A program made the position numbers and the translations under genes. The notes below the pieces were generated by a model that searched no databases, was not told the origin of the DNA, and was given only the letters and a program-made list of their open reading frames with translations. Shown in pieces: positions 1,613-49,831 of a stretch of DNA of 64,000 bases; position 1 is the first letter of the stretch, and each line of letters begins with the position of its first letter. Source of the stretch: an uncultured Desulfovibrionaceae bacterium (GTDB lineage Bacteria > Desulfobacterota > Desulfovibrionia > Desulfovibrionales > Desulfovibrionaceae); contig CALUZB010000004.1 in NCBI GenBank assembly GCA_944325195.1, positions 620,001 through 684,000 of the forward strand, read 5' to 3'.

Positions 1613-3391
1613 ATGCTCTGGTCAAATCTCAATATGAAGAAAAAAATGGTTCTGGTTTTTGGCGGTCTGATTGTTTTCTTTTGTGGGGCAATGCTTGTAC
1701 TTACGTTTATCTTGCGGGATGTTGTCGAGCGCTCTGAAGCTGTTTTGGAAAAGACTCAATACACAGCTAATATAACGGCTCGTGAAGTGGATCATCTTAA
1801 GTGGACGGAAGAGCTCATTAGCTTTATCGAGCAAAATGGTGAAGTTCCCCTTGCCGTTCAGGCGGACCATACAAAATGCGCTTTTGGTAAATGGTTTATG
1901 GGGGATGGGAGAGATGAACTGGAGAGGCTGGTGCCCAGTGTACGCGCTCAGTTCAGTAGAATGGAAGAGCCTCACCGTAAATTGCATAACAGCGCCCCTG
2001 TTATCGAGGAGTTGATTAAAAATGGTCAACAGGCGCAGGCATTGGAAATATTCAACAAAGACGTACAAGGTTATTCAAATAATGTAGTTGGCTTGCTCAG
2101 TGAAGTGAGAGCTCAGGTGGCTCAGGCGGCTAAAGAGGATTATAACAAGTACCAGCACATGGCAAGGCTTGGCGATAAAGTGGTTTTTGCAACTATTACT
2201 CTGGCGGTTCTAGGGGGCATTGTTGCCAGCTTTATTCTGCTACGTTCGTTTGCCGTTCCCTTGCAGCGTATTGCCTCGGTCAGCGCGAGGGTTACCGGCG
2301 GCGATCTCCATGCCCGGGTGGGTATGAAGCGTAAAGACGAGATCGGGCGCATCGCTAAAAGCCTGGATGAAATGCTGGATCAACTCTGCACTAAAATGGA
2401 TGAAGCAGACGCCAGCGCCATGGAAGCCAGGCGCCAATCGGATGAGGCTGAGCGTGCGCTGGCTGAGAATGAGGCGAAGGAAAAGCAAATTCTGGGCTTG
2501 CTCGGCGCTATGAATGATACATCTTTACGGGCGGCAGGCATGGCTGAAGAACTTGATAAAGATACTACAGTTATTGCTGTCAGTATCGAGCAGGTCAGTT
2601 CGGGCAGCGCCTTGCAACAAGATCGTCTGAATGCTGTTTCCGGTAACGTCGATGAAGTGAATCATGTGGTGAGTGAAATCGCCGCCAGTGCAAAAGAGGC
2701 GGCGGACAGTGCGGCCATGACCTTGGAAAAAGCCAAGCAGGGCGCAGAAGTGGTAGTGCGCAGCGAGGAATCAATCCGTACTGTTAACACAGTGGCCGCC
2801 CGCCTTAAGGAGGATATGCAGGAGCTTGGCCACCAGGCTGAATCCATTGGCCAGGTGATGAACGTCATTTCCGACATTGCCGACCAGACCAATTTGTTGG
2901 CATTGAACGCGGCAATTGAAGCGGCCCGGGCCGGAGACGCCGGGCGAGGGTTTGCCGTAGTGGCCGATGAAGTCAGAAAGCTGGCGGAAAAGACTATGTA
3001 CGCTACCAAGGAAGTGGGCGATAAGATTAAGTCTATCCAGCAATCTGTGGCTGACGGGGTGAACAATATGAACGCGGCCTTTGTTGCAGTGGAAGAGTCC
3101 ACCCAACTTGTGCGTGAATCTGGGCACTCGTTGGAAGAAATTGTGGAGCTTGCCGCTCTGAATGCGGATAATGCTCATACAATTGCCAGCGCTGCCGATC
3201 AGCATTCGGCTTCTTCGGAAGCCATTGCCGAGAATATCCGTGAAGTAGCGGGCATTGCTGATACTACTCGTGAGGGTATGGAAAAAGTTGTGCCGCTCAT
3301 CCAAGAGCACCGGGATATTGTCCACGAACTACATATGCTGCTTGAAAATTTGAAGCAACATGGCAAGACATCACTGAAGCCGTCCAATTGA
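1613..3391 (+). CDS. Methyl-accepting chemotaxis protein with CZB zinc-binding sensor domain
   Basis: A 592-residue inner-membrane chemoreceptor that would pass a ligand signal to CheA/CheW. TM1 is about residues 11-33 and TM2 about 189-211. Between them is a CZB-type (chemoreceptor zinc-binding) domain with H61, H86 and C89 in [10 protein letters not shown], and H121/H125 in EPHRKLH. A HAMP domain (about 212-262) is followed by a long coiled coil with the highly conserved hairpin ([20 protein letters not shown], about 417-436). The start has a good RBS (AGGGGGT, 5 bases upstream); ATG 1634 is an alternative. CZB domains are more often cytoplasmic, so the periplasmic placement predicted here is worth noting. 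The cognate signal cannot be told from sequence; zinc, redox state or hypochlorous acid are known for other CZB receptors. Confidence 0.93.
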
Positions 3392-34027: not shown

Positions 34028-35233
34028 ATGTCAGAGCTCACTGTCGATATGCTTTTAAAGCTTGCCGAGGTTTCCGGGAACACACCCAAGATTCCGGATT
34101 TGGTATTGTTTCTCGGACGTAACGGCGGCGGATTGTTTGATAACGCCAAGCACTGTTACCTTGAAACTGTGCGTAATAAATACCGGTTCAAAAGTGTATT
34201 TTATACGGCGTCTCCCCGGGCGGAGCGGGAATTGAGCGCGCTTGGTGTTTCATTTATAAATGAGCTGGACTTTGAACTGCTCAGCAGAGTCGCCTTGATA
34301 GTGTGCGACGATTTTTATTGGCGAGAAAGTTTGGTTGAATATATAACCAAGGGGGCGAAGATCTTTCAGCTTTGGCACGGGATACCGCTCAAGTCCATTG
34401 GAATGGTTCAGGCGACTATCGAGCACCGGAACATGTCCCCTGAGCGCCAACGCTGGATTCGCTTCGGGTACAGCGGTTATAATACGGTGCTTTCCACCTC
34501 GGAATATGTCAGCCGGGAGATCTTCAGCCAGGTATTTGAAACCGGAAAGTTTGTGAATTTAGGTTACCCCCGCAACGATGTTTTGTTGCGTCCGGCAACG
34601 AAACTCGACAGGCTGGATATGCTTAACGTGCCCAGGGATATTCTGGCTCGTCTGCAAAGACAGCGCAAAGCCGGCGGCAAGGTTGTTGTTTACATGCCCA
34701 CTTTTCGCGACTACAATGCGAACGGCGAAGTGAACGGCACTCAAAATGCCGGGTGTTATCTGGATATTGCGGCGCTTGGCGAATTTGGGCGACGCAACGG
34801 CGTGCTGTTCCTGCTCAAGTATCATCCTTATGTAAAGGATATTCCCGCCGCCCTCCCGGAATCATGCATTTTCTGTCCGCACACAGCGGACATCTATCCG
34901 CTTCTGCGCTTTTCCGACGCCCTGCTTACCGATTATTCATCAGTATATTTTGATTATTTGCTGCTCAACCGGCCCATTCACTACTTTACCCCGGATAAAG
35001 AGGAATATGAACGGAAAGATCGTAAATTCATGCTGAATTTTGACGATTGGACACCCGGCGTAAAAAGCCGCTCCCAGGAGGAATGCTTTGCGGCGCTGAC
35101 TGATTTGCTGGCTGCCGATATGAACGACGGCTTTGAGGGCGAACGCTTGCGGATGCGCGATATCCTGTTTGAACATATTGATGATCGGGCTGCAGTCAGA
35201 TGTTGCGAATATATAACCGAGCTTTTGGGCTGA
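34028..35233 (+). CDS. CDP-glycerol:glycerophosphotransferase family protein
   Basis: A 401-residue GT-B enzyme of the TagB/TagF family. Key marks are QLWHGIPLKSIG, the NLGYPRNDVLL segment, VVYMPTFRDY, FLLKYHPYVKD, and LLTDYSSVYFDYLLLNRPIH. The family moves a polyol phosphate from a CDP-linked donor onto a glycan or lipid. It is about half the length of TagF, so it probably adds a single unit (TagB-like). Together with the sulfatase-like gene upstream it points to a phosphopolyol decoration. No gene for CDP-glycerol synthesis (tagD) lies in the window. Confidence 0.88.
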   Translation: MSELTVDMLLKLAEVSGNTPKIPDLVLFLGRNGGGLFDNAKHCYLETVRNKYRFKSVFYTASPRAERELSALGVSFINELDFELLSRVALIVCDDFYWRESLVEYITKGAKIFQLWHGIPLKSIGMVQATIEHRNMSPERQRWIRFGYSGYNTVLSTSEYVSREIFSQVFETGKFVNLGYPRNDVLLRPATKLDRLDMLNVPRDILARLQRQRKAGGKVVVYMPTFRDYNANGEVNGTQNAGCYLDIAALGEFGRRNGVLFLLKYHPYVKDIPAALPESCIFCPHTADIYPLLRFSDALLTDYSSVYFDYLLLNRPIHYFTPDKEEYERKDRKFMLNFDDWTPGVKSRSQEECFAALTDLLAADMNDGFEGERLRMRDILFEHIDDRAAVRCCEYITELLG

Positions 35234-35353
35234 GGATAACATGCCTGCTTGCGGGGCGGGTCTATATCAGGCCTGAAGGGTGTGGTATTGAGTTGGTGGC
35301 TTTGGAGCACAAAGTCTGCTGTTTCTTTAATTATCTTTAAGGTTGATTATCCT

Positions 35354-38083
35354 ATGCCGTTTCCGAGTAAGCAACAAATATTGAAGCAGAAGCAAAGAAC
35401 TTTGGAAGCAGCCACAGCCGCCTGTGGGCTGCAAGATATTCCCGTCGGACTGTTTGACGAGGTGTTGGACTTTCTGACTTATTATGGAGATTCCCCGCGC
35501 CTGGCCCATTGGGTAAAAGACGTATATCTGAGCCGGGGTATAATTCAACCGCCTTGTCCGGAACCAACACCGCTGGTTTCCGTGATCATACCCTGCCATA
35601 ATTACGGACGCTATTTGCGGGAATGCGTGGAAAGCGTGCTGATGCAGACCATGCCGAATTGGGAAATTATCATCGTGGATGACGGCAGCACAGATAACAC
35701 GCCGGAAGTAGCTGCAAAAATTCTAGATGATTTTCCGGAGCATAAAATCCGCCTGATCAGTCAGGAGTGCCAGGGCATAGTTCAGCCGCGCAACCGGGGA
35801 GTGACTCTTGCCAAAGGCGAGTTCATTCTGCCTTTAGATGCGGATGACCTGATTGCTCCGACGTTTCTGGAAAAGACCGTAGCAACGCTTCAGGCGGATG
35901 ATGACCTTGGCTATGTAAGCACGCGAGCATTGTTTTTCGGCAGTTCCAACAAGATATGGCCAATGGAGCCGTTTGTTCCTTTAGCCCTTCTGGTGGCAAA
36001 TCAGCAGGGCAATACTACCCTTTACCGCAAAAAGATGTGGAAAGATGTAGGCGGATATGAAAAGGAAATGATTTACGGCTATATGGATTGGGAATTCTGG
36101 ATTCACTGCACTAAAGCCGGTTGGGTTGGTCGGCAGCTTGAAGAGCCTCTTTATTTATATAGGCGGAAGGATAACTCCGTGGTGATGCAGGCCAAGAAGC
36201 GCGATGTGAATATAAAGAAGCAAATAGTGTCACTGCACCCGGAAATTTATGACACCGCCAAGCTGGCTGCCGTCGGAGATGAGATCAACAATAAAAATTG
36301 GATCCCGCCCGGGCTCTTGCGCTCACCCCTGCTCATTCCGCCGCGGCCCGGGCAGAAGCCGCAACCGGTTCTGTTTTCAGTTGCCGAATATTTATCAGTT
36401 CAATCGTTCAAGCGTATGGTGCTTAATCAGCTTGCCGAGATTTTCCCCGGGCATCTGTCCATGTTCATGGGGGGGGATGCGGGTAACGGTGAATTGGGCT
36501 CATTTACACAGTTCTTTTCACTATTGTCCGGAAAAATGGATGCCTATATCCTAGCGGGTAAGCGTAAGGAAGCAGGACTGCTCGCATTACAATTGCTTTC
36601 CAGTTATCCTTTGTGTAAGAATGGCGTTATCAAAGCCTTGCAGGCTATTTCTTCCGGTTTATGTCCGCAGGCAAGCTACGAGGCAGGCAAGCTTTACTAT
36701 TCCATTTTTCCTGATGATGAAATGGCGGAATGTCTGGCTAAACTCCTTTATGCCACTATCCCGGCTGAGGACAGTTTGTATACTCTGGGCCTGCTGGAAG
36801 GTGTTGCTCAATTGGCGCCGAATTTTCCGGAAATAGCAGAAAAACTGGCGGGAATGAAAGAAAGGTTGGGTTTCTCTTTCGGCAGTGATGAGAAAACCGC
36901 TCCAATATGGTATGTGGCGGATGAATTTGGTTATGTGCGCGGCAATATCCATGGGGTGAATAAAGCGCGGGTAATGACCATGTCTTCAATATTGCAGGGG
37001 CGCAATGGGCCTGAAGTTTGTATAGTTACCCCTCTTCACGCTAATATTGCCGAGGCTGTTTCCCTGTTTTATAAAAAGCTGGAGCAGACCGCCCCGGACA
37101 AAGACCACCGGCTCCCTCAATGGTGTTGTACAAAACCGACAAACGGCGGCGCTGGCTTTATTTCAGTTCCGGCGGTGAAGCCGGGCGTTGTTATCACGGA
37201 AGGAGTGCGCCTGGAGGCATATGACTACTTCAAGGTACTGAAATGTGAAGGGGTGCAGCCAACGGTATTCATGCACCATGCTTCGCCAAAACAATATGAA
37301 AAGGCCTACACCGGCGACTTTATACTTCCAGAGCTTCTAAGGGTTCTTGAAAGATACAAATACAACATTTGTGTTTCCCGGAATGTGATGGATGAGTGGA
37401 AACAGATACCCTCTCTGGCTGAAAAGAACTGGACATATATTCCTAATTGCGTCCCGGATGAGGAGGATGCAATTCTGCTGAGCGGGGTTGACAAACAAGA
37501 TATTCGAAAAAAATTACAACTTCCGGAAAATGTGTTTATCGGTCTTTGTCTGGCCAGCGTTCAAACCCGTAAGGGGCAGGATATTCTTTTGCGCCAGTTG
37601 CATGAAGTGCTGAAAAAAGCTCCGGAATCTCTGTTTCTGTTTGCTGGACCTGTTTTGTGGCATTGGGGCGGCGGCGAAATCGTAGATTATGCGCAAGCAA
37701 ACTTCACGCCTGAAAATGTCAGGATTTTGGGCTCAAAACCGAATCCGTTTGAGTATATTCTGGCGGCGGATTGTCTGATATTGCCGTCGCGTGAGGAAGC
37801 ATTGCCGCTTACTATTCTTGAAGCGATGTTATTAGGCAGGCCGGTTATCGCCGCGAGTGTGAACGGTATCCCTGAACTCGTGGTGCCGGAAGAAACAGGT
37901 CTGCTGTTTGCGCACAACACTCCAAGTGATTTGGCAAAACATATTTTGCGTTTGGTTGGTGATCCCGGTCTGGCTGAGAAAATGGGGCAGGCCGGGCGCA
38001 AGCGATATTTTGCAAACTTTTCGCGTGAGCGCCATACCGCTAGATGGCATGAGTTTTGCAATTTAATCGGAGCCCGTAAGTGA
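35354..38083 (+). CDS. Bifunctional GT2-GT4 glycosyltransferase
   Basis: A 909-residue fusion. Residues about 70-290 are a GT2 domain: LVSVIIPCHNYGRYLRECVE, IIIVDDGSTDNTPEV, and LPLDADDLIAP as DxD motif. A middle helical region (about 380-560) links to a GT4 domain, where residues about 580-710 are the acceptor half and about 710-900 the donor half (LASVQTRKGQDILLRQL, ILPSREEALPLTILEAMLLG, the E(x)7E-type motif). Two different sugars are probably added in turn. ATG 35354 is chosen over 35249 because AAGGTT precedes it and the added residues look random. A G8 tract (36469-36476) lies between the two domains. Confidence 0.86.
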   Translation: MPFPSKQQILKQKQRTLEAATAACGLQDIPVGLFDEVLDFLTYYGDSPRLAHWVKDVYLSRGIIQPPCPEPTPLVSVIIPCHNYGRYLRECVESVLMQTMPNWEIIIVDDGSTDNTPEVAAKILDDFPEHKIRLISQECQGIVQPRNRGVTLAKGEFILPLDADDLIAPTFLEKTVATLQADDDLGYVSTRALFFGSSNKIWPMEPFVPLALLVANQQGNTTLYRKKMWKDVGGYEKEMIYGYMDWEFWIHCTKAGWVGRQLEEPLYLYRRKDNSVVMQAKKRDVNIKKQIVSLHPEIYDTAKLAAVGDEINNKNWIPPGLLRSPLLIPPRPGQKPQPVLFSVAEYLSVQSFKRMVLNQLAEIFPGHLSMFMGGDAGNGELGSFTQFFSLLSGKMDAYILAGKRKEAGLLALQLLSSYPLCKNGVIKALQAISSGLCPQASYEAGKLYYSIFPDDEMAECLAKLLYATIPAEDSLYTLGLLEGVAQLAPNFPEIAEKLAGMKERLGFSFGSDEKTAPIWYVADEFGYVRGNIHGVNKARVMTMSSILQGRNGPEVCIVTPLHANIAEAVSLFYKKLEQTAPDKDHRLPQWCCTKPTNGGAGFISVPAVKPGVVITEGVRLEAYDYFKVLKCEGVQPTVFMHHASPKQYEKAYTGDFILPELLRVLERYKYNICVSRNVMDEWKQIPSLAEKNWTYIPNCVPDEEDAILLSGVDKQDIRKKLQLPENVFIGLCLASVQTRKGQDILLRQLHEVLKKAPESLFLFAGPVLWHWGGGEIVDYAQANFTPENVRILGSKPNPFEYILAADCLILPSREEALPLTILEAMLLGRPVIAASVNGIPELVVPEETGLLFAHNTPSDLAKHILRLVGDPGLAEKMGQAGRKRYFANFSRERHTARWHEFCNLIGARK
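36469..36476 (+). repeat. G8 homopolymer inside the GT2-GT4 gene
   Basis: Eight consecutive G lie in frame as part of ATG GGG GGG GAT (about codons 372-375), between the two glycosyltransferase domains. A slip here would leave a GT2-only protein. Confidence 0.9.
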
Positions 38084-38115
38084 ACACTTAGATAATAAAG
38101 AGTGGAAGGTAGCCT

Positions 38116-39003
38116 ATGGCAGAATTATGTTTAACAGGTTTACAGCCGAATTCTCCGGAGTTGGTCCGACGTTTGCGGAATGTGGACTGGCTTGGCAGGG
38201 AGTTCAGCTATGCACAGTATATTCGTAGCATAAAGATGGCTGAAGCACCTGAACCGCCTGCAATGAGTCTTATTCTGTGCCTTGATCGTTTGGAGAAGAA
38301 GGTTGTGGCCGCCTTGCATATGCTGTTGGATGCCAATCCTGACTCACTGGAAATAATAATAGTCAATCCTCAATGTTCCTCGCCGTGGCTGGCGGTTCTT
38401 CCGCGAATAGCGCATGTTTGGATTGATGTTGATGATAACTGCCCTGAATATACATCAAGAAATATGGGAGCCCTGTTTGCCAATGCTCCCATGTTGCTTT
38501 TTTTATCTGATGCGGTTGCACCAGTTCCGGCATTACCCCAAGCTTACATCAATTGTCTGAGCCGGGAAGGAGTCATAGCCGCCAGAGGGCGGGTTCTTAA
38601 AGAACGTCAGTCATACACTGCTTTGTTTCGCCGCTTCGACTTGGGAGATTGCTCTTTCCCTTGGGCCTTGGACTTAGATGAGAATATGGCGATACTGGCT
38701 CAACAGTTTTTCAGCATCGGTGGGTTTGATGAAACCTTGCAGCCAGGCTTCGGAGCTTTGGAGCTGTCCGCTAAAATATACCAACGTTTCCCGGAATATC
38801 AGGCGCAGCAATACTGTCCTGAGGCGGCGGCGTTTTCTCATGCCGGTTCCACTCCTCTCCACCACGGTATGGACAGTCAGATTTCCTGGAAGCAGCTTAC
38901 AGAGAAATATGCTCCAAAAAAAGACGAAAACCATTTATTGCTTTACTATGATTATTGGTTCAGTCTTTTGAAAAAGTTTATGAAAGATAAGGGGGCAGTA
39001 TGA
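38116..39003 (+). CDS. GT2-like glycosyltransferase (GT-A fold), divergent
   Basis: A 295-residue protein with a GT-A-like pattern: MSLILCLDRLEKKVVAALHM, LEIIIVNPQCSSPWLA, and TSRNMGALFANAPMLLFLSD, in which LSD stands where a DxD-type motif is expected. FFSIGGFDETLQPGFGALEL is the acceptor-region motif. The metal-binding motif is weak, so it may be a divergent or non-catalytic partner. It overlaps the next gene by 4 nt (ATGA). Confidence 0.72.
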   Translation: MAELCLTGLQPNSPELVRRLRNVDWLGREFSYAQYIRSIKMAEAPEPPAMSLILCLDRLEKKVVAALHMLLDANPDSLEIIIVNPQCSSPWLAVLPRIAHVWIDVDDNCPEYTSRNMGALFANAPMLLFLSDAVAPVPALPQAYINCLSREGVIAARGRVLKERQSYTALFRRFDLGDCSFPWALDLDENMAILAQQFFSIGGFDETLQPGFGALELSAKIYQRFPEYQAQQYCPEAAAFSHAGSTPLHHGMDSQISWKQLTEKYAPKKDENHLLLYYDYWFSLLKKFMKDKGAV

Positions 39004-40223
39004 ACGACTGGTCAAAACGGCATGGAGGGAGTAGAGCTTTTCTGGCGCTGTCCCGTTCTTTTCCCGATCCTACCGGATATAATGTGCGCTCTCACTCCAT
39101 AGCTACACATCTTCTGGCGCATGGCGTGGATTTAAGTGTATATACCAGGCCGGGGTTCCCTTTGTTTGAGAGGAATGCTCCCATGGATTTTGAATATGAT
39201 GGCGTCATCTATCATCGCCTGCCGCATTTGGCTCCTGAAACCGGTTATTCGGGAGTATTTTATCGGGAGATGGCAAGAGAGGTTTACAGACAGGCAATAC
39301 GCGAGTCGCGAGCATGTATCGTCCATGCGGCTTCTGATAAAGAAAACGGTTTGCCCGCAGTAATAGCCGGGAAAGATTTGGGGGCACGCACTATATATGA
39401 ATATCGCGGCATGTGGCATTATACGCGTGACAGCCATGTTCCGTGGCATCATATAACGGCTGATTATTCCAACAGCCATGCCCTTGAGTTGGAGGTTGGC
39501 ACAAAAGCTGATGCTGTGTTTACAATTTCTGAGGCCTTGCGGGAAGATTTGGTCAGTTATGGCCTAGACAGAAATAAAATAAGCATACTGCCTAACGCAG
39601 TGGACGTAGAACGGTTTTCACCTCAACCAAGGGATGAACAGCTACGCAGTGAACTTGGCTTGCAGGGTAAAGTTGTTGGATTTGTAGGAAGCATTACCCG
39701 TTATGAGGGAATAGACTATTTGATTGATGCGGTGTTAAGCCTTAACGCGGCTGGAGAAAAGGTCTCGTTGTTGGTTGTCGGGGATGGGCATAATCTGGCA
39801 TATCTTAGGGAGCACCACCGCGTTCGGGGCTCACACCCTTGTGTTGTCTTTGCCGGCAGAGTGCCTTTTGATGAGATTAACCGCTATTATTCCATTATTG
39901 ATATAATTGCCCTTCCCCGGGTTAACTGCAAGGTTTGCCAGTGTATTCCACCGCTCAAGCCTTTGGAGGCAATGGCCATGGGCAAGGGTTTAATAGTATC
40001 GGACATGGCGGCAATGTGCGAAATAGTCAAGCATGATCAAACAGGCCTGGTCTGTCGTTCAAACAGCGTGAACAGCTTGGCAGAGCAACTGGGAAGGTTG
40101 ATCAACGAGCCGGAATTGTTCCGAGTTCTTACTGAAAACGCCATGGATTGGGTGCGTCAAGAACGCGATTGGGCTATAGTCAGCAAGCGAATTTTGCAGG
40201 TATATGAAAAACTGATTGGATAG
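39000..40223 (+). CDS. GT4 glycosyltransferase
   Basis: A 407-residue GT-B retaining glycosyltransferase. The N-terminal half has FPDPTGYNVRSHSIATHLLA; the C-terminal half has VGFVGSITRYEGIDYLIDAV, LLVVGDGHNLAYL, VVFAGRVPFDEINRYYSIID, and PLKPLEAMAMGKGLIVSDMA with the ExxxxxxE-like motif. The start codon overlaps the previous stop (ATGA) with AAGGGGG just before it. The sugar is unknown. Confidence 0.9.
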   Translation: MNDWSKRHGGSRAFLALSRSFPDPTGYNVRSHSIATHLLAHGVDLSVYTRPGFPLFERNAPMDFEYDGVIYHRLPHLAPETGYSGVFYREMAREVYRQAIRESRACIVHAASDKENGLPAVIAGKDLGARTIYEYRGMWHYTRDSHVPWHHITADYSNSHALELEVGTKADAVFTISEALREDLVSYGLDRNKISILPNAVDVERFSPQPRDEQLRSELGLQGKVVGFVGSITRYEGIDYLIDAVLSLNAAGEKVSLLVVGDGHNLAYLREHHRVRGSHPCVVFAGRVPFDEINRYYSIIDIIALPRVNCKVCQCIPPLKPLEAMAMGKGLIVSDMAAMCEIVKHDQTGLVCRSNSVNSLAEQLGRLINEPELFRVLTENAMDWVRQERDWAIVSKRILQVYEKLIG

Positions 40224-40228
40224 AAGAA

Positions 40229-41806
40229 ATGGACAGAAGTTTTGAAGTGTATTTAGGCATGGCCATGAGCCAATGGGTACAGCGAATGACAAAACGTCGT
40301 ATTGACTGGCTCTGTGCGCAGGCCAGAGGGTTTGTGTTAGATATAGGCTGCGGACAGGGGCTTGTGCCTTGGCTGTTGGCCAGTAGAGGGTTAAGAGTTA
40401 TTGGGGTTGATATGGATGCCGAAGCGCTGGGCTGGGCGCGGGAAAATCTTGCTCCCAGCAACCCTGCAGTTTGGGAACGTATTACTTTTGTGCATGGTGA
40501 CTTTGCCACTTTCAATTCACAAGAGAAGTTCGATACTATAATTGCGGGCGAGTATCTGGAACATTTACCGGATGAGATATTGGATAAGCACTTGCAACAC
40601 ATAAGCTCTTTATTAGCTCCGGGGGGTGTTGTTGCCATTACCACGCCATTGGGCCTGCATCCTCACCCGGATCATTACCAGACATTTTTCCCGCGCAATT
40701 TGGCGGAAAAATTGTCGAAATATTTTTCCATTAGATCTATGGATGTTCAGGACTGCTATTTCCGTTGTTTGTGTGACCTGTCAACGCCCAAACTAATCCC
40801 GGATCAGGAAGAATTACTTTACTTGAGTGAAAGGGGAATTCAGCAGGCGCAGGAAAGAGAATATGCACGCATGGGGTTGAAGGTAAAGACTCCCCCGCCG
40901 CCGCAAAAGTCTTCTTCATGTATTAAAAGGCCAGTTGTTAAGGATAACATTGAAGATTATCTGCACGAAAAACATATTACGGAAGTCAGCCTGTTACAAA
41001 AGAAACTGGCTGAACGAGGCATACATACCCCATTTGTATACGATGTCCGACTGTTTAAAGAACTTAATTCTTTGTATGCCGACAAGCCTCTGGTACCTTC
41101 TCCGCGCAGTATCACCCCGGAAGGGCTTTTTGCCCAAGCTGATTCCAGAGTAAGCTCTCTGCTGAAAATGTTACCGTCTTTTGCAGGCTTAAAATGTCTT
41201 GAAGTTGGTTGCGGGCGGGGAGAAACTTCTGTGCGTTTGGCTGAAAGGGGGGGATGTGATGTCGTTGGGGTAGATATCACTCAGTATGACGAATGGGAAG
41301 AGCGCTGGAGTAAGCAGACTCGCTTTCTACCTATTGATATTACATATGATGCACCTTTCCCGCCCAACTCCTTTGACTTCATTTTTTCTTTTGTAGTGCT
41401 TGAGCATGTGGCCGCTCCTCTTGATATGCTTACCGCATTGCATAGATTGTTAAAGCCGGGGGGTAGGCTGTATTTCACTGCTAACCTTTACCGTGGTCCT
41501 ATGGCGTCACACCGGTACAGAGAGGTCTTTTTCCCTTGGCCCCACCTTTTGTTTGATGATGAAGTATTTGAGCAGTTCTACAAACAAGAAGGCTATACTT
41601 TCAGTGGGAAACCTGCTTGGGTTAACAAGTTGATACATTTACACTACCTTGAGCATGTCAAGTCACTTGGTTTTACAATTCTGGAGTGTAATTATACGCG
41701 TCGTCCTTTAGATAAGGATTTCTATTTGTGCTTTGAGGAAAAGCTGGGCAGATATCCTGTAAATGACCTGGAGTTGGATTTTATTAAAATGCTGCTTTGT
41801 AAATAG
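40229..41806 (+). CDS. Tandem-domain SAM-dependent methyltransferase
   Basis: A 525-residue protein with two class I methyltransferase domains. The first (about 25-180) has FVLDIGCGQGLVPWLLASRG and VIGVDMDAEALGWAREN. A linker with the proline-rich PPPPQKSS follows. The second (about 300-460) has CLEVGCGRGETSVRLAERGG, VVGVDITQYDEWEE, and ACGGFD-like FDFIFSFVVLEHVAAPLDML. It would methylate sugar residues of the surface glycan at one or two positions. Six bp after the GT4 gene, same strand. Confidence 0.88.
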   Translation: MDRSFEVYLGMAMSQWVQRMTKRRIDWLCAQARGFVLDIGCGQGLVPWLLASRGLRVIGVDMDAEALGWARENLAPSNPAVWERITFVHGDFATFNSQEKFDTIIAGEYLEHLPDEILDKHLQHISSLLAPGGVVAITTPLGLHPHPDHYQTFFPRNLAEKLSKYFSIRSMDVQDCYFRCLCDLSTPKLIPDQEELLYLSERGIQQAQEREYARMGLKVKTPPPPQKSSSCIKRPVVKDNIEDYLHEKHITEVSLLQKKLAERGIHTPFVYDVRLFKELNSLYADKPLVPSPRSITPEGLFAQADSRVSSLLKMLPSFAGLKCLEVGCGRGETSVRLAERGGCDVVGVDITQYDEWEERWSKQTRFLPIDITYDAPFPPNSFDFIFSFVVLEHVAAPLDMLTALHRLLKPGGRLYFTANLYRGPMASHRYREVFFPWPHLLFDDEVFEQFYKQEGYTFSGKPAWVNKLIHLHYLEHVKSLGFTILECNYTRRPLDKDFYLCFEEKLGRYPVNDLELDFIKMLLCK

Positions 41807-41899: not shown

Positions 41900-42385
41900 A
41901 TGAAGCAACGTGTTGCTATTGCTGTTCACATTGAGGCGCAGCCGGACTTTGCGAAGGAAAATCATATCGACCGGTTAATCTGGGGAAAGTTTGGAAAATC
42001 TGGGTTCGGGCTTGGACTGATGTTGTCTATGGCAGCTCAATACGGCATACATGCGACTTGTTTCATCGATTATGCAGAACATGAACTATATGGGGAAGGA
42101 TGGTTGGATGTTGGCAGAGAAATTCTGCGGCGAGGGCATGAACTACAGCCAAGTCTTTCCCCAAAATTTTTAGGCGACAAGTTTTGGAGACGGTATAATT
42201 TAAAGCCGGTCAACGATTTCCGTCATGCCGATTTGGAACAATGTCGTGTAGGGATTAACTACATGCTGGAGACACATGCAGGCATTAGCTCTGAAAAACA
42301 CATAGCCTATAGAAGCAGTTACCTACCTACCTACCTACCTACCTACCTACCTACCTACCTACTCTCTTCTCTCGGTAATGGGTGA
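41900..42385 (+). CDS. Phase-variable glycan enzyme, N-terminal fragment as sequenced (OFF frame)
   Basis: As sequenced this frame encodes 161 residues: a polysaccharide-deacetylase-like start (AVHIEAQPDFAKENHIDRLI, then GWLDVGREILRRGHELQ) followed by YLPT repeats from the tetranucleotide tract and a stop at 42383-42385. The downstream frame (from 42378) lies +1 relative to it and continues the same domain. Deleting one 4-bp unit, or adding two, joins them: YLPTYS-LLSVMGEAGIF follows directly. The deacetylase-like copy here lacks the metal residues found in the later copy (HIEAQ against TIDTE; QPSLSPKFL against QVHMHPEMF), so it is probably a non-catalytic or sugar-binding domain. Confidence 0.8.
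   Translation: MKQRVAIAVHIEAQPDFAKENHIDRLIWGKFGKSGFGLGLMLSMAAQYGIHATCFIDYAEHELYGEGWLDVGREILRRGHELQPSLSPKFLGDKFWRRYNLKPVNDFRHADLEQCRVGINYMLETHAGISSEKHIAYRSSYLPTYLPTYLPTYLLSSLGNG
42320..42362 (+). repeat. Tetranucleotide repeat tract (10.75 units of TACC) inside a gene
   Basis: A perfect period-4 tract of 43 bases (TACC/ACCT/CTAC/CCTA phases). Starting in frame at 42320 it reads Tyr-Leu-Pro-Thr repeatedly. The unit length is not a multiple of three, so each gain or loss changes the reading frame. Tracts of this kind are the standard basis of slipped-strand phase variation in Haemophilus and Neisseria. Confidence 0.97.
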
Positions 42386-44612
42386 AGCGGGCATCTTTTT
42401 AGATGCCAGTTATGCTCCGCATATAGAAGATAACCCAACAGGGCAAACCTTCCGCTCTCCTTTCTTTTGGAGTAATGGGGTGTTTGAGGTCCCTGTTTCT
42501 TGTTTGTTGAATTTTAATAGACATTCATTTGTCGATTATGATTTTAACTCGCCGGCATTGCTGAGCGGAAGTCCGGAAAGATGTGTACAGCAACATGAGG
42601 CTTATTTGAACAGCTTTTTTGCGCGCTACGGCAATCAGGCCATAGCTGTACTCACTATTTGTCCTTGGTATTTCTACTCTCCGGATGAAAATGGCTATTA
42701 CAGTATTTTTCAGCCTGACTCAGTTAATAAGCTTAACTTAGTGTTGGAGATGCTGAGCAAAAAATACGACATAGTAACATTGGGCGATATAGCAGCATCT
42801 CTCCATGAAGAAAGACAGCGGGCAATTCCGGAATATGTAGAGCTGGGGCAATCAGAACCATATTGTACGATTTGTCGCGCTCCGGCCAGTCACTTTACTA
42901 ATCTTAATGATGTTCCTAAACGGCATTGCCCGGTCTGTAAGTCTCTGGAACGCCAACGCGTTTTTTATGATTTGTATACTAAAGGGGTATTCGGAAAAGG
43001 CGCGCTTGGGGACAAGAAGATCTTACATATAGCTCCAAGTATAGTTGAAAGAAGAATATTCAGTGAAATTAACTGCTATACTGTATCAATAGATATAAGG
43101 CCCGACTTCAAACCGGATATTTTAGGAAACATAAGCAATATCCCGCAAATACCTGATGAGAGTTTTGATATTGTTTTCGGCAGCTTTGTATTCACATGCA
43201 CGGAAAATTTTCAAGACGCTGTTAAGGAATTATGGCGGATACTACGCCCGGGAGGATTTATCCTTTGTCATGATCCGCTAAGGGAAGGTGTTACAAAAGA
43301 AATAAGGGAGCATGAGGAGATAGTCGCCTACTACGGCGGGGAGGCTTACCAAAAATACCATGTCGGAACTTTTCGTATTTTTGGAGAGGAAGATTATGCA
43401 AGTAAGTTTTCTCCTTACTTTAATGCTGAGTTGTATTACGGCATAGATACACCTACCGGAATCCGTCAGGGTTGGCTTAAAGCCGTTAAGCCTGCCCCAC
43501 CTAGTAAGGCTTCCTTAATAGCTTCCTGTATTAAGGACATTCCTGTAAAAGCATCACAAAGGTCTGCTCGCAAAGTTGTTATTACTATTGATACAGAAGC
43601 TCACAAACTGCGAGCTGAACGCGATCATGTGAGGCGTTTAATCTGGGGTGAGCATAATGGCGATCAATATGGGCTGGGGCGCATGATGGATATAGCTGAG
43701 GCTCATAATGTTCAGTTTACATCGTTTTTAGATTTACCGGAGTATACTTCATATGGAGAAGATATTCTGGATGTAGGCAGGGAGGTGTTGCGTCGCGGGC
43801 ACGATTTGCAGGTGCATATGCACCCGGAGATGTTTTCCAGAGAGTTTTTTGATATGCATGGTCTTAGGTCTGAAAGCTATGTCCTTCCTCGGGTAAGTAA
43901 TTTGTCTGTTGCAGAGCATGTAAAAAGAGGAAGGTGTGCATGGGACCCTACGCTTTCTTCAAGAGATCATATACGTTGCTATATTGATACTACACTGGAC
44001 ATTTATTCACGGATTACTCCTGTACCACCGAGTGCTTTCCGTACAATGGGCTTTAAATTGACTCCGGCTTTAATTGAACTTTTGGGAGAGACCTCCATCC
44101 CTCTCAGTTCTAATTATAATCCACAATTTCCAGATAGAGCCCCTTTTCTTAAGGGAGTTATTCTGCCGCCTTTTTATTGGCATACGGGAATGCTGGAGTT
44201 GCCGGTAAGCTGTCTCATGTTTGTAGGGGCCAAAGGTCCGGAGCATTATAATTTCAATACATCTTTATTGTTAGGGGGCGATGCTGGTGAATGCGCCCGG
44301 CGGCATGAGGCTTTCTTGAATTGCTTTTTTGACAGTAACCCGCAGAATACAGTTGCAGTAATGGTAATGCACTCATGGTCTTTTTTAATAATGGACAAGA
44401 AAGGCTTTTTTACCATACCAAATGAACATGCTGTTGAGGTATTCGATACTGTTTTAAGCAGGCTATCAAAACAATTCGAGTTTATAACCCTGAAAGAAGT
44501 TGCCAGTCAGAGGGAAAACTTATTTCCTTCGGCTACAAAGAGGCAGGCGGAATCTCCGGTGCAAAGCGAGGCATGGTCATTTTCCCCCACAGCTCTCCCA
44601 CCATTTGTTTGA
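42378..44612 (+). CDS. Phase-variable glycan enzyme, main part: deacetylase-like end, methyltransferase, second deacetylase-like domain
   Basis: A 744-codon frame whose ATG at 42378 has no RBS; the frame is also open upstream through the repeat tract, so it is best read as the continuation of the 41900 gene. In the fused numbering, the first deacetylase-like domain ends near 300. A zinc-ribbon-like motif (CTICRAP...HCPVCKSLERQR) and a methyltransferase-like domain (LHIAPSIVERR, FDIVFGSFVFTC, WRILRPGGFILCHDP) cover about 310-525. A second deacetylase-like domain (about 555-870) has VVITIDTEAH, DLQVHMHPEMF (candidate metal His residues) and FRTMGFKLTP. It could deacetylate and methylate a surface sugar. 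As sequenced it may be expressed only weakly or not at all. Confidence 0.8.
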   Translation: MGEAGIFLDASYAPHIEDNPTGQTFRSPFFWSNGVFEVPVSCLLNFNRHSFVDYDFNSPALLSGSPERCVQQHEAYLNSFFARYGNQAIAVLTICPWYFYSPDENGYYSIFQPDSVNKLNLVLEMLSKKYDIVTLGDIAASLHEERQRAIPEYVELGQSEPYCTICRAPASHFTNLNDVPKRHCPVCKSLERQRVFYDLYTKGVFGKGALGDKKILHIAPSIVERRIFSEINCYTVSIDIRPDFKPDILGNISNIPQIPDESFDIVFGSFVFTCTENFQDAVKELWRILRPGGFILCHDPLREGVTKEIREHEEIVAYYGGEAYQKYHVGTFRIFGEEDYASKFSPYFNAELYYGIDTPTGIRQGWLKAVKPAPPSKASLIASCIKDIPVKASQRSARKVVITIDTEAHKLRAERDHVRRLIWGEHNGDQYGLGRMMDIAEAHNVQFTSFLDLPEYTSYGEDILDVGREVLRRGHDLQVHMHPEMFSREFFDMHGLRSESYVLPRVSNLSVAEHVKRGRCAWDPTLSSRDHIRCYIDTTLDIYSRITPVPPSAFRTMGFKLTPALIELLGETSIPLSSNYNPQFPDRAPFLKGVILPPFYWHTGMLELPVSCLMFVGAKGPEHYNFNTSLLLGGDAGECARRHEAFLNCFFDSNPQNTVAVMVMHSWSFLIMDKKGFFTIPNEHAVEVFDTVLSRLSKQFEFITLKEVASQRENLFPSATKRQAESPVQSEAWSFSPTALPPFV

Positions 44613-44890: not shown

Positions 44891-45577
44891 TTATTTTCTG
44901 CCCACAACAATTGTTCCGCCCATTAAAACTTCCTGGCGGAATGAATCAGGGAAGTTTTGTACTTTTGAAATGGTAATCGAGAAACCCACCTGCTGCAGGC
45001 GTTCACAAAATGCTTCCAGGCTGTAGCCTCTGACATGGTCTTTCTGACCAAATGCTTTTTCTCTTTCTTCTGGAGCAACTATTGAGTAATTTTCATAAAG
45101 CTGCGGAAATAAAGGCACACAGAGGAAGGCTGTCCCGCCGGGTTTAAGGGTTCTGTGCAGTTCTCTCATAGCGCGGATATCGTCAACGATATGTTCAAGC
45201 ACATGGATACAAATTATATAATCAAAAAAGTCGTTATCATATTGTATGTCTGTTATATCCACTTGGTAAGAGGCTTTTCTCGGATTTATGTCGCAGTCGA
45301 AGTATTTTGCAGAAGATTGTTCAAAAAGACTCCGGAAACATTTTTCTGGAGCAAAGTGTAAAATATTTTTATTTTGTACAAATGGAAAGATGGAAAGTAG
45401 GTGTATATACAAATGGCGTTGTCGTTCCAGGCTTCCGCAAATGGGACACATTGCTTCGCGGGGTTTCAGCCCGAAACTTTTGAACTTAGCAAACCTGAAC
45501 CCGCAGACATTGCAGTATCTTTTGGTTCCTGCAAAATCGGGGTTTTCCTGAATGAAATTTTCGTAGATGGTTGTCAA
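44891..45577 (-). CDS. SAM-dependent methyltransferase with CxxC zinc-ribbon motif
   Basis: A 228-residue protein, the only minus-strand gene in the polysaccharide locus. The N-terminus has two cysteine pairs (CNVCGF and CPICGSLERQRH), followed by a class I methyltransferase-like domain: ILHFAPEKCFRSLFEQ, ISYDCDINPR-like FDCDINPRKASYQVDIT, YIICIHVLEHIVDDI, and LHRTLKPGGTAFLCVPLF. It is clearly related to the middle domain of the phase-variable gene next to it (same CP(V/I)C(K/G)SLERQR and LHxAP signatures). The start is TTG with TAGGAG upstream, at good spacing. Confidence 0.85.
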   Translation of the reverse strand: MTTIYENFIQENPDFAGTKRYCNVCGFRFAKFKSFGLKPREAMCPICGSLERQRHLYIHLLSIFPFVQNKNILHFAPEKCFRSLFEQSSAKYFDCDINPRKASYQVDITDIQYDNDFFDYIICIHVLEHIVDDIRAMRELHRTLKPGGTAFLCVPLFPQLYENYSIVAPEEREKAFGQKDHVRGYSLEAFCERLQQVGFSITISKVQNFPDSFRQEVLMGGTIVVGRK

Positions 45578-48060: not shown

Positions 48061-48097
48061 AGCTTGAAGATTTGGCGGTTCCGGCTTATTGCAGGGG

Positions 48098-49831
48098 ATG
48101 TCGGAAATTCAGGATAATAAATTCACTGCCGGTCTGAAGGGAAAAGACAGCTTCAACAATCCGGAAAATCCGGAGGGTGGGCAGGCTTCCACGGCTTTTC
48201 CCCCTGTTTCCCCTTCGCTTGCCCGTCGTTATTCGTTCAAGCTCATAGCTAATATCGCTGGCATTCCTTTATATCTGCTGATGGAGGCGATCCTTCCCCG
48301 TGCTTTAGGCCCTGTAGCCTATGGGGCTTTTTCCTATGCTACCGGCATGTTTCAGTATCTGACCAATTTCCTTGATTTCGGAGCTTCAACCTGCTTATTC
48401 ACAGCCTTGTCCAAACGCCAGTCGGAGTGGTCTCTGTTGGCGTTTTTTTTGCGGATAAGCGGGCTGATTTTTATCCTCTGTCTGCTGATGTCAGGCTTGT
48501 GTATGGTGCCTCAGATCGGTGCGCGCCTCATGCCGGGGGTGCCGGCCTGGATCATGCCCTGGGCTGCTCTTTGGGCGCTGGCCACCTGGGGGGTGCGCGT
48601 TTTGCGCGGGGTGAACGACGCCTTGGGGCAAACCGTAAAAAGCGAAAAGCTGCGCACTATAGCCGGGGTGCTGGCTTGTGTGGCCCTGGTTGTGCTGCAT
48701 TTGGCGGGCGTGCTCAATCTGCCGGTTCTGTTCGCTCATCAACTTGCTTATTTATTCGGAATGATCATTGCCTTTAAGATTATAATTCTGGAGGGGTTCC
48801 CTGGCCCTCAAGGAAAGAGCACTGAGTCGGGCAGGGAAAACAGTACAGGGCAGCGTTTGCCGTCCCTTGCTCTGAGCAAAGAGCAGAAGCGCGCATATGC
48901 CCGTGAATTTGCTGCATATTCTCTGCCCTTGTTCTTTCAACTGGTGGTTACTTCCCTGGCCTTAATGGGCGATCGCTGGTTGCTTCAGATGTTTGACGGC
49001 AATATCGAGCAGGGTTATTTTTCAATATCTCAAAAAGTTGGCATGGCCTGCTTTCTGTTCGTTTCGGCAATGACTCCCCTGCTCACCCGCGAGCTTGCCG
49101 TAGCGCACGCCAAGAGCGACTTTATTCAAATGGGCCGCCTGTTTGCCCGGTTCGCCCCGATGCTGTATGCTGTGGCGGCTTATTTCTCCGCTTACGCCTG
49201 CCTTGAGGCGGATACGGTAGTTGCTGTTTTTGGGGGAAGTCAATATGCGGCGGCGGTTTTCACTGTGCAGATTATGACGCTTTATCCCATTCACCAGGGC
49301 TATGGCCAGCTCACTCAAGCGGTATATTATGCCGCGGCTGAAACCAAAGCGTTGAGTAAAATTACAGTTGTCGGTTGTGGGGTGGGAGTGTTGGCTTCAA
49401 TTTTTCTGCTCATGCCGGAGCAGTATGGGGGGCTGGCTTTGGGGGCGTCTGGGCTGGCGGTGAAAACAGTCGGACTGCAATTTCTTGTTGCCAACTTTAT
49501 GTTGTTAATGTGTTCGAGACTTATTCCTCTGCCTTTGGGGCGCTTATTTGCCCATCAGTTCATCAGTTTGGGGGTGTTCATGTTGCTGGCTTGGCTGGTG
49601 GGACAGGCCGGGAACAGCTTCCCCGGAGTTTTGGGGAATACGTCGTTTGGGCTGAACGGCTTGCCCGGGCAGATCGCCGGGTTCTGTTTACGCGGCATAG
49701 TTTACAGCCTGGGAGTGGGGATTGTTTGCTTTATATTCCCTTGGCTCATCGGTACATCGCATACTGAACTCAAAGGCGTGCGGAAACGAATCGGGCTGTG
49801 GCGCTCCGGAAACAGGAACACCCTCTTGTAA
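48098..49831 (+). CDS. Polysaccharide flippase, Wzx/MATE-like
   Basis: A 577-residue integral membrane protein with about 12-14 predicted helices, beginning after a soluble N-terminal stretch of about 35 residues. IAGIPLYLLMEAILPRALGP and AYGAFSYATGMFQYLTNFLD are typical of O-antigen flippases, which move lipid-linked repeat units across the inner membrane. A cytoplasmic loop with a Ser/Gly/Thr-rich low-complexity piece lies near residues 235-265. Start uncertain: ATG 48098 or TTG 48089. No Wzy or Wzz was recognised nearby. Confidence 0.85.
   Translation: MSEIQDNKFTAGLKGKDSFNNPENPEGGQASTAFPPVSPSLARRYSFKLIANIAGIPLYLLMEAILPRALGPVAYGAFSYATGMFQYLTNFLDFGASTCLFTALSKRQSEWSLLAFFLRISGLIFILCLLMSGLCMVPQIGARLMPGVPAWIMPWAALWALATWGVRVLRGVNDALGQTVKSEKLRTIAGVLACVALVVLHLAGVLNLPVLFAHQLAYLFGMIIAFKIIILEGFPGPQGKSTESGRENSTGQRLPSLALSKEQKRAYAREFAAYSLPLFFQLVVTSLALMGDRWLLQMFDGNIEQGYFSISQKVGMACFLFVSAMTPLLTRELAVAHAKSDFIQMGRLFARFAPMLYAVAAYFSAYACLEADTVVAVFGGSQYAAAVFTVQIMTLYPIHQGYGQLTQAVYYAAAETKALSKITVVGCGVGVLASIFLLMPEQYGGLALGASGLAVKTVGLQFLVANFMLLMCSRLIPLPLGRLFAHQFISLGVFMLLAWLVGQAGNSFPGVLGNTSFGLNGLPGQIAGFCLRGIVYSLGVGIVCFIFPWLIGTSHTELKGVRKRIGLWRSGNRNTLL

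Follow-up and report, generated by a model that had tools for sequence, protein, structure and literature searches.

Is the gene at 41900–44612 simply broken, or does the tetranucleotide repeat that interrupts it act as a switch? The gene, from a gut-type sulfate reducer, lies in a 64-kb window, which is the whole stretch of DNA that was analysed (Table 1). We consider it likely that the locus is a translational contingency gene, a random on/off switch for a protein whose enzyme activities are predicted from its sequence.

Table 1. Features of the interrupted gene and its neighbourhood (positions in the window).
Position	Strand	Feature	Evidence
34028..40223	+	Glycosyltransferases and CDP-glycerol:polyglycerophosphate glycerophosphotransferase-like gene, glycan cluster	Domain matches
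40229..41806	+	Upstream double methyltransferase, orthologous (54–58%) to same-cluster gene of relatives	
41900..44612	+	D1-MT-D2, candidate phase-variable gene over its full length; frame broken (OFF) in the assembly	Frames; collinear with D-MT and D-MT-heparinase genes of relatives
41900..42385	+	161-aa ORF of the OFF state: beginning of pseudo-deacetylase D1, crossing the tract and ending at TGA	HMM match E 5e-54, D-domain profile positions 2–143
42320..42362	+	Perfect (TACC)10.75 tetranucleotide tract	Loop after conserved Arg of D domain; encodes YLPT repeats
42363..42818	+	Remainder of D1, +1 frame	D-domain profile positions 145–296; alignment
42378..42385	+	ATGGGTGA: overlap of the OFF-state stop with the in-frame ATG that opens the 744-aa ORF	Possible reinitiation site
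42819..43550	+	CxxC...CxxC zinc-ribbon-like stretch and class I SAM-dependent methyltransferase domain (MT)	PF08241; AlphaFold; Foldseek
43569..44609	+	D2, plausible NodB/CE4-like deacetylase domain; D8, H83, H85 and H268 kept	Alignment; AlphaFold; Foldseek
44891..45577	-	Small methyltransferase with Zn ribbon, homologue of the MT domain in the interrupted gene	
48089..49831	+	Polysaccharide flippase-like protein	PF01943

Repeat tract and reading frames
Tandem Repeats Finder reported the TACC tract with period 4, 10.8 copies, 100% matches and a score of 86, the highest within the window. Together with direct reading of the sequence, this confirmed the statement of an earlier sequence-only reading that a perfect 43-bp TACC tract lies inside a single gene. 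The tract begins at codon 141 of the 902 codons of the restored gene. The same reading had the upstream frame running through the tract into a stop and the +1 frame open downstream, and direct frame reading agreed. Beyond the tract, the open frame spans 42306–44609, with 744 aa counted from its first ATG at 42378. One TACC unit fewer yields a single frame of 902 aa, as had been proposed; two units more yield 906 aa, where 905 had been given. The third frame of the gene stops after 160 aa. Apart from the tract, ∼900 codons are open.

The broken domain is uninterrupted in same-family G102 (L058), G094 (Candidatus Desulfovibrio intestinavium) and G152 (an uncultured Desulfovibrio MAG), and homologues have no repeat at the aligned position of the tract. 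Since relatives encode this domain in one frame and ∼900 codons are open, 41900–44612 is, by its sequence, one gene and probably no decaying pseudogene. Two separate genes at this position, which had been put forward as a test to be made on homologues (the two frames apart, with no joining domain), were rejected, as the homologues carry the D domain whole and in one frame. No further copy of the gene was found in the same genome, and it is absent from one other species of the same genus (G001).

In G102 and G094 two adjacent genes, D-MT and D-MT-heparinase II/III, were identified. The window gene shows collinearity with all of D-MT and, in the other gene, with the D domain; it has neither a second MT nor a heparinase part. 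Stappia has a gene pair D-MT and D-heparinase. The pairs of G094, of G102 (from the genus of G094) and of Stappia have the same domains in the same order as the window gene, but they are two genes, with an intact first domain and no TACC tract. In a tree with long branches, both window D domains group, at moderate support, with the G102 and G094 domains. In Burkholderiales (L120, L123, L124, L126, L127, L129, L132, and L135), D genes of a single domain lie side by side in pairs, and both members have intact metal ligands.

Domain composition of the predicted protein
When the frames are joined, D1 and D2 align with 28% identity (E 5e-44), and PF08241 is matched between them. The order deacetylase-like, methyltransferase, deacetylase-like, as first read from the letters, was therefore upheld. 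MT matches PF08241 (Methyltransf_11) with 38.6 bits against a cut-off of 21.2. Its AlphaFold model has a pLDDT of 82 and was matched by Foldseek to the SAM methyltransferases 2p8j and 6f5z (E ∼1e-8), so that MT has both a Pfam model above cut-off and the fold of class I SAM-dependent methyltransferases. The NodS model PF05401 did not match MT; it was matched only by the upstream neighbour, among many generic methyltransferase models. A PDB sequence search with the 744-aa frame gave a weak methyltransferase match only.

The D domain was assigned by fold and motif, and no curated Pfam or NCBIfam deacetylase model matched the D domains above cut-off. The AlphaFold model of D2 (pLDDT 80) resembles 3rxz (E 2.6e-9), ArnD 8t0j (E 8e-8) and the Bordetella O-antigen protein WbmS 3hft (E 1.6e-4) according to Foldseek, and the D-domain profile finds 3rxz by sequence too (E 2.5e-4). 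D2 has the NodB fold, the Asp-His-His metal triad and the catalytic His; the metal and catalytic motifs of deacetylases have been described (PMC10967932). A NodB/CE4-type deacetylase is thus a plausible assignment for D2 from its sequence and model. We call it a NodB-like fold and not a classified CE4 member, because no curated deacetylase model matches.

D1 is different. The alignment places H, S, S, and C at the positions of the metal Asp, the two metal His and the catalytic His, residues that are kept in ∼90 non-redundant homologous domains wherever the alignment covers them. Judged by this alignment, D1 is a pseudo-domain without any of the metal and catalytic positions, and it lacks the triad and catalytic His by which a NodB/CE4-like deacetylase is recognized. 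It retains 9 of the 20 near-invariant columns of the D domain. The lost columns are nearly all in active-site motifs, and outside them glycines, Phe, Glu, Arg, and Pro are retained; a loss this selective would be unexpected from neutral decay. D1 probably has a binding or structural role. At the tract loop, after the conserved Arg, it is ∼7 residues longer than its homologues. A pseudo-deacetylase is an unusual carrier of a switch tract.

Genomic context
The genes around the locus (glycosyltransferases, glycerophosphotransferase-like and flippase-like genes, together with sugar-nucleotide genes in the same cluster) support a surface glycan as the predicted target, without specifying one. The earlier proposal of a gene for sugar deacetylation or methylation agrees with this glycan cluster and with a slippage-prone tract in one gene. 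It has to be corrected for the first domain: the full protein would be no double deacetylase, because D1 lacks metal and catalytic residues.

A promoter and terminator scan gave promoters no better than those of shuffled sequences, and a search for known RNAs found tRNAs only. A phage origin of the gene was rejected after a scan of IMG/VR found no relative, and a plasmid origin was rejected as well, with only a distant single-domain homologue on one plasmid.

Simple repeats in the genome and in the family
Repeats were surveyed in 868 kb of the genome, taken as stretches, and by pattern searches. Perfect period-4 runs longer than 14 bp in the 868 kb were only the TACC tract, an intergenic AGGT/GGTT tract of 44 + 31 bp (C11:494-565) and one 29-bp run, which is a dinucleotide (AC)14.5 tract. 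As the number of perfect runs drops about fourfold with each added base, the 43-bp tract is far beyond chance. TACC units in at least five copies were found in only two places of the 2.48-Mb genome. The published cut-off for candidate phase variation is at least five tetranucleotide units (PMC6321876), which the 10.75 units inside this coding frame exceed.

Other repeats also interrupt or enter genes. In the same genome, 62 kb upstream, a poly-G9 at C4:600286 (L101:286-294) breaks a glycosyltransferase gene that would be restored to 401–402 aa by one G fewer or two more, and a poly-G11 at C4:609438 (L101:9438-9448) is in frame inside a methyltransferase gene. In G152 a (GA)10.5 tract (L060:3420-3440) breaks a 1172-aa gene with a TPR C-terminal part that adjoins the D-MT gene, and in G102 a poly-G12 is in frame within a radical SAM/SPASM gene of the cluster. 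The D-MT gene of Stappia has a poly-G10 (L113:10098-10107) in frame inside its deacetylase domain, where any gain or loss of 1–2 bases truncates the gene. We treat the poly-G and GA tracts as leads, because poly-G runs of at least 9 are not rare in the source genome (∼21 tracts) and many are intergenic or in genes without a visible frame break.

A TACC tract of at least five units was found in 5 of 285 genomes of the family. The tracts examined outside the window gene look intergenic, and the unit can therefore expand without a frame-switching role. The orthologous tracts of G089 and G155 are 41 and 45 bp long, one unit apart, with flanks ∼99% identical, which indicates that TACC-type tracts change length within the family. 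These two tracts (L222:5280-5320 and L223:6409-6453) stand behind a well-spaced ATG of a short ORF.

Proposed switch and alternative explanations
We infer slippage of the TACC tract in living cells, as well as the enzyme activities, their substrate and a surface phenotype. Slipped-strand changes in the tract would shift the remainder of the gene into or out of frame. The full protein would be made from one third of the tract lengths (9.75, 12.75... units), the other two thirds would stop after ∼160 residues, and the assembled copy with 10.75 units is OFF. The full protein would consist of the pseudo-deacetylase D1, the SAM methyltransferase MT and the deacetylase D2, with one deacetylation and one methylation predicted. 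The likeliest chemistry, by analogy, is that D2 removes an N-acyl group and MT then methylates the freed group. Cells of one population would in this way differ in a single decoration of a surface sugar. Frame switching is supported because the tract is far above chance and published cut-offs and a change of -1 or +2 units restores the frame, because the restored domain matches its homologues across the break with the remaining codons open and the D2 active-site residues kept, and because of the glycan-cluster context, the other SSRs in the same system and the length change between G089 and G155.

The OFF form might still be productive. Ribosomes stopping at the TGA at 42383–42385 could restart at the ATG at 42378 and make a 744-aa MT-D2 protein without most of D1, in which case the tract would toggle the pseudo-domain (substrate docking or partner choice) and not the whole enzyme. 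The overlap of ATG and stop in ATGGGTGA fits such a restart, and the 744-aa frame holds all plausible catalytic parts; D1 itself, without catalytic residues and with conserved structural positions kept, has the look of a binding module. However, no clear Shine-Dalgarno sequence precedes 42378, just one of the two OFF frames ends at the overlap, and the 744-aa product starts mid-domain, leaving roughly half of D1 at its front, unable to fold into the complete domain. We regard this trimming as improbable. Specificity phase variation, where OFF would be MT-D2 made by reinitiation and ON would add D1 and change the target glycan or partner, is likewise doubtful; here the D1 loop would grow by four residues (YLPT) for every three TACC units.

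The gene may also be a simple pseudogene, killed by one tract expansion and now decaying. The degenerate D1, the lack of the second MT and heparinase part and the break in the one genome of this bacterium that was analysed would all suit this explanation, but ∼900 codons apart from the tract are open, the active site of D2 is intact, and D1 has lost active-site residues specifically and kept structural ones. The frame-broken poly-G glycosyltransferase gene is moreover a parallel case in the same genome, and we think loss of the gene unlikely. An error in the repeat count, with the gene really intact and fixed, would be conceivable in a 27-contig assembly, since repeat tracts are error-prone; yet a 43-bp tract fits inside ordinary short reads, and even if the correct count were an ON one, the coding frame would still contain a long tract prone to slippage. 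Such an error is very unlikely to explain the locus. The on/off switch is the reading that we follow below.

Comparison with known systems
The classical tetranucleotide contingency loci are lic1A, lic2A, lic3A, and modA of Haemophilus influenzae, and phase variation by simple repeats is best known from a small number of mucosal pathogens. For H. influenzae, De Bolle et al. (2000, cited in PMC11868660) reportedly treated tract length and switching rate. Like the lic loci, the window gene has an in-frame tetranucleotide tract in a predicted surface-sugar gene and would be ON in one frame of three. Unlike the H. influenzae loci, it has the unit TACC, belongs to the Desulfovibrionaceae and encodes a fused multi-domain enzyme, and its switching is a prediction; the tract is inside a folded domain, whereas the H. 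influenzae tracts are near the start codon.

The sequence-only reading had known of no contingency locus of this architecture. The architecture is indeed undescribed as far as we found, but a phase-variable polysaccharide deacetylase gene has already been reported (PMC2823697). HCAN_0153 of Helicobacter canadensis, a polysaccharide deacetylase family protein with a (G)12 tract (range 9–14), is a strong candidate for translational phase variation and, like the window gene, is broken by an SSR beside surface-glycan genes (PMC2823697). It differs in having a homopolymer instead of a tetranucleotide and in that reads showed its length to vary; neither a methyltransferase fusion nor a pseudo-domain is named for it (PMC2823697). 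In the open-access literature, with its incomplete coverage, we found no description of D1-MT-D2 under a repeat and no report of SSR phase variation in Desulfovibrionaceae.

The proposed chemistry is modelled on Nod-factor synthesis, where N-methylation by NodS takes place only after deacetylation by NodB (PMC5080398). NodB and NodS are a deacetylase and a SAM methyltransferase acting on the same sugar, as D2 and MT may be, with the substrate of the latter predicted by analogy. In rhizobia NodB and NodS are separate proteins, and the window MT does not resemble NodS at the level of its Pfam model. For D1 there is a counterpart in the CE4 pseudoenzyme BA3943 of Bacillus anthracis (PDB 7bkf), a known inactive NodB-fold domain. 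Activity appears to be lost in both, in D1 by residue loss; D1 differs in being fused ahead of a methyltransferase and an intact deacetylase and in carrying a repeat.

If the switch is real, sulfate-reducing commensals also diversify their coats (the Desulfovibrionaceae are a family with many gut members), which would be relevant to resistance against phages and to immune recognition. The sugar change would also be directly testable, with both a deacetylase and a methyltransferase controlled by one switch.

Additional repeats
The intergenic tract on C11 (L028:494-565 of G000) is a compound (AGGT)11 followed by (GGTT)7.8, with the same unit as the window TACC tract, and it lies in ∼1.5 kb devoid of clear genes. 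G135 has intergenic AGGT arrays at dispersed sites (L219:6411-6446, L220:928-974, and L221:5672-5727); their flanks are conserved, and they are apparently a repeat family that carries the array. The window tract was also considered as a mobile or dispersed element and rejected as such, since its flanks are D-domain coding sequence, unlike those of the G135 element. Finally, the window contains a perfect (AC)14.5 tract at 1429–1457, ∼155 bp upstream of a chemoreceptor gene (MCP, CZB, HAMP; 1613–3391), which is a candidate for promoter-type phase variation.
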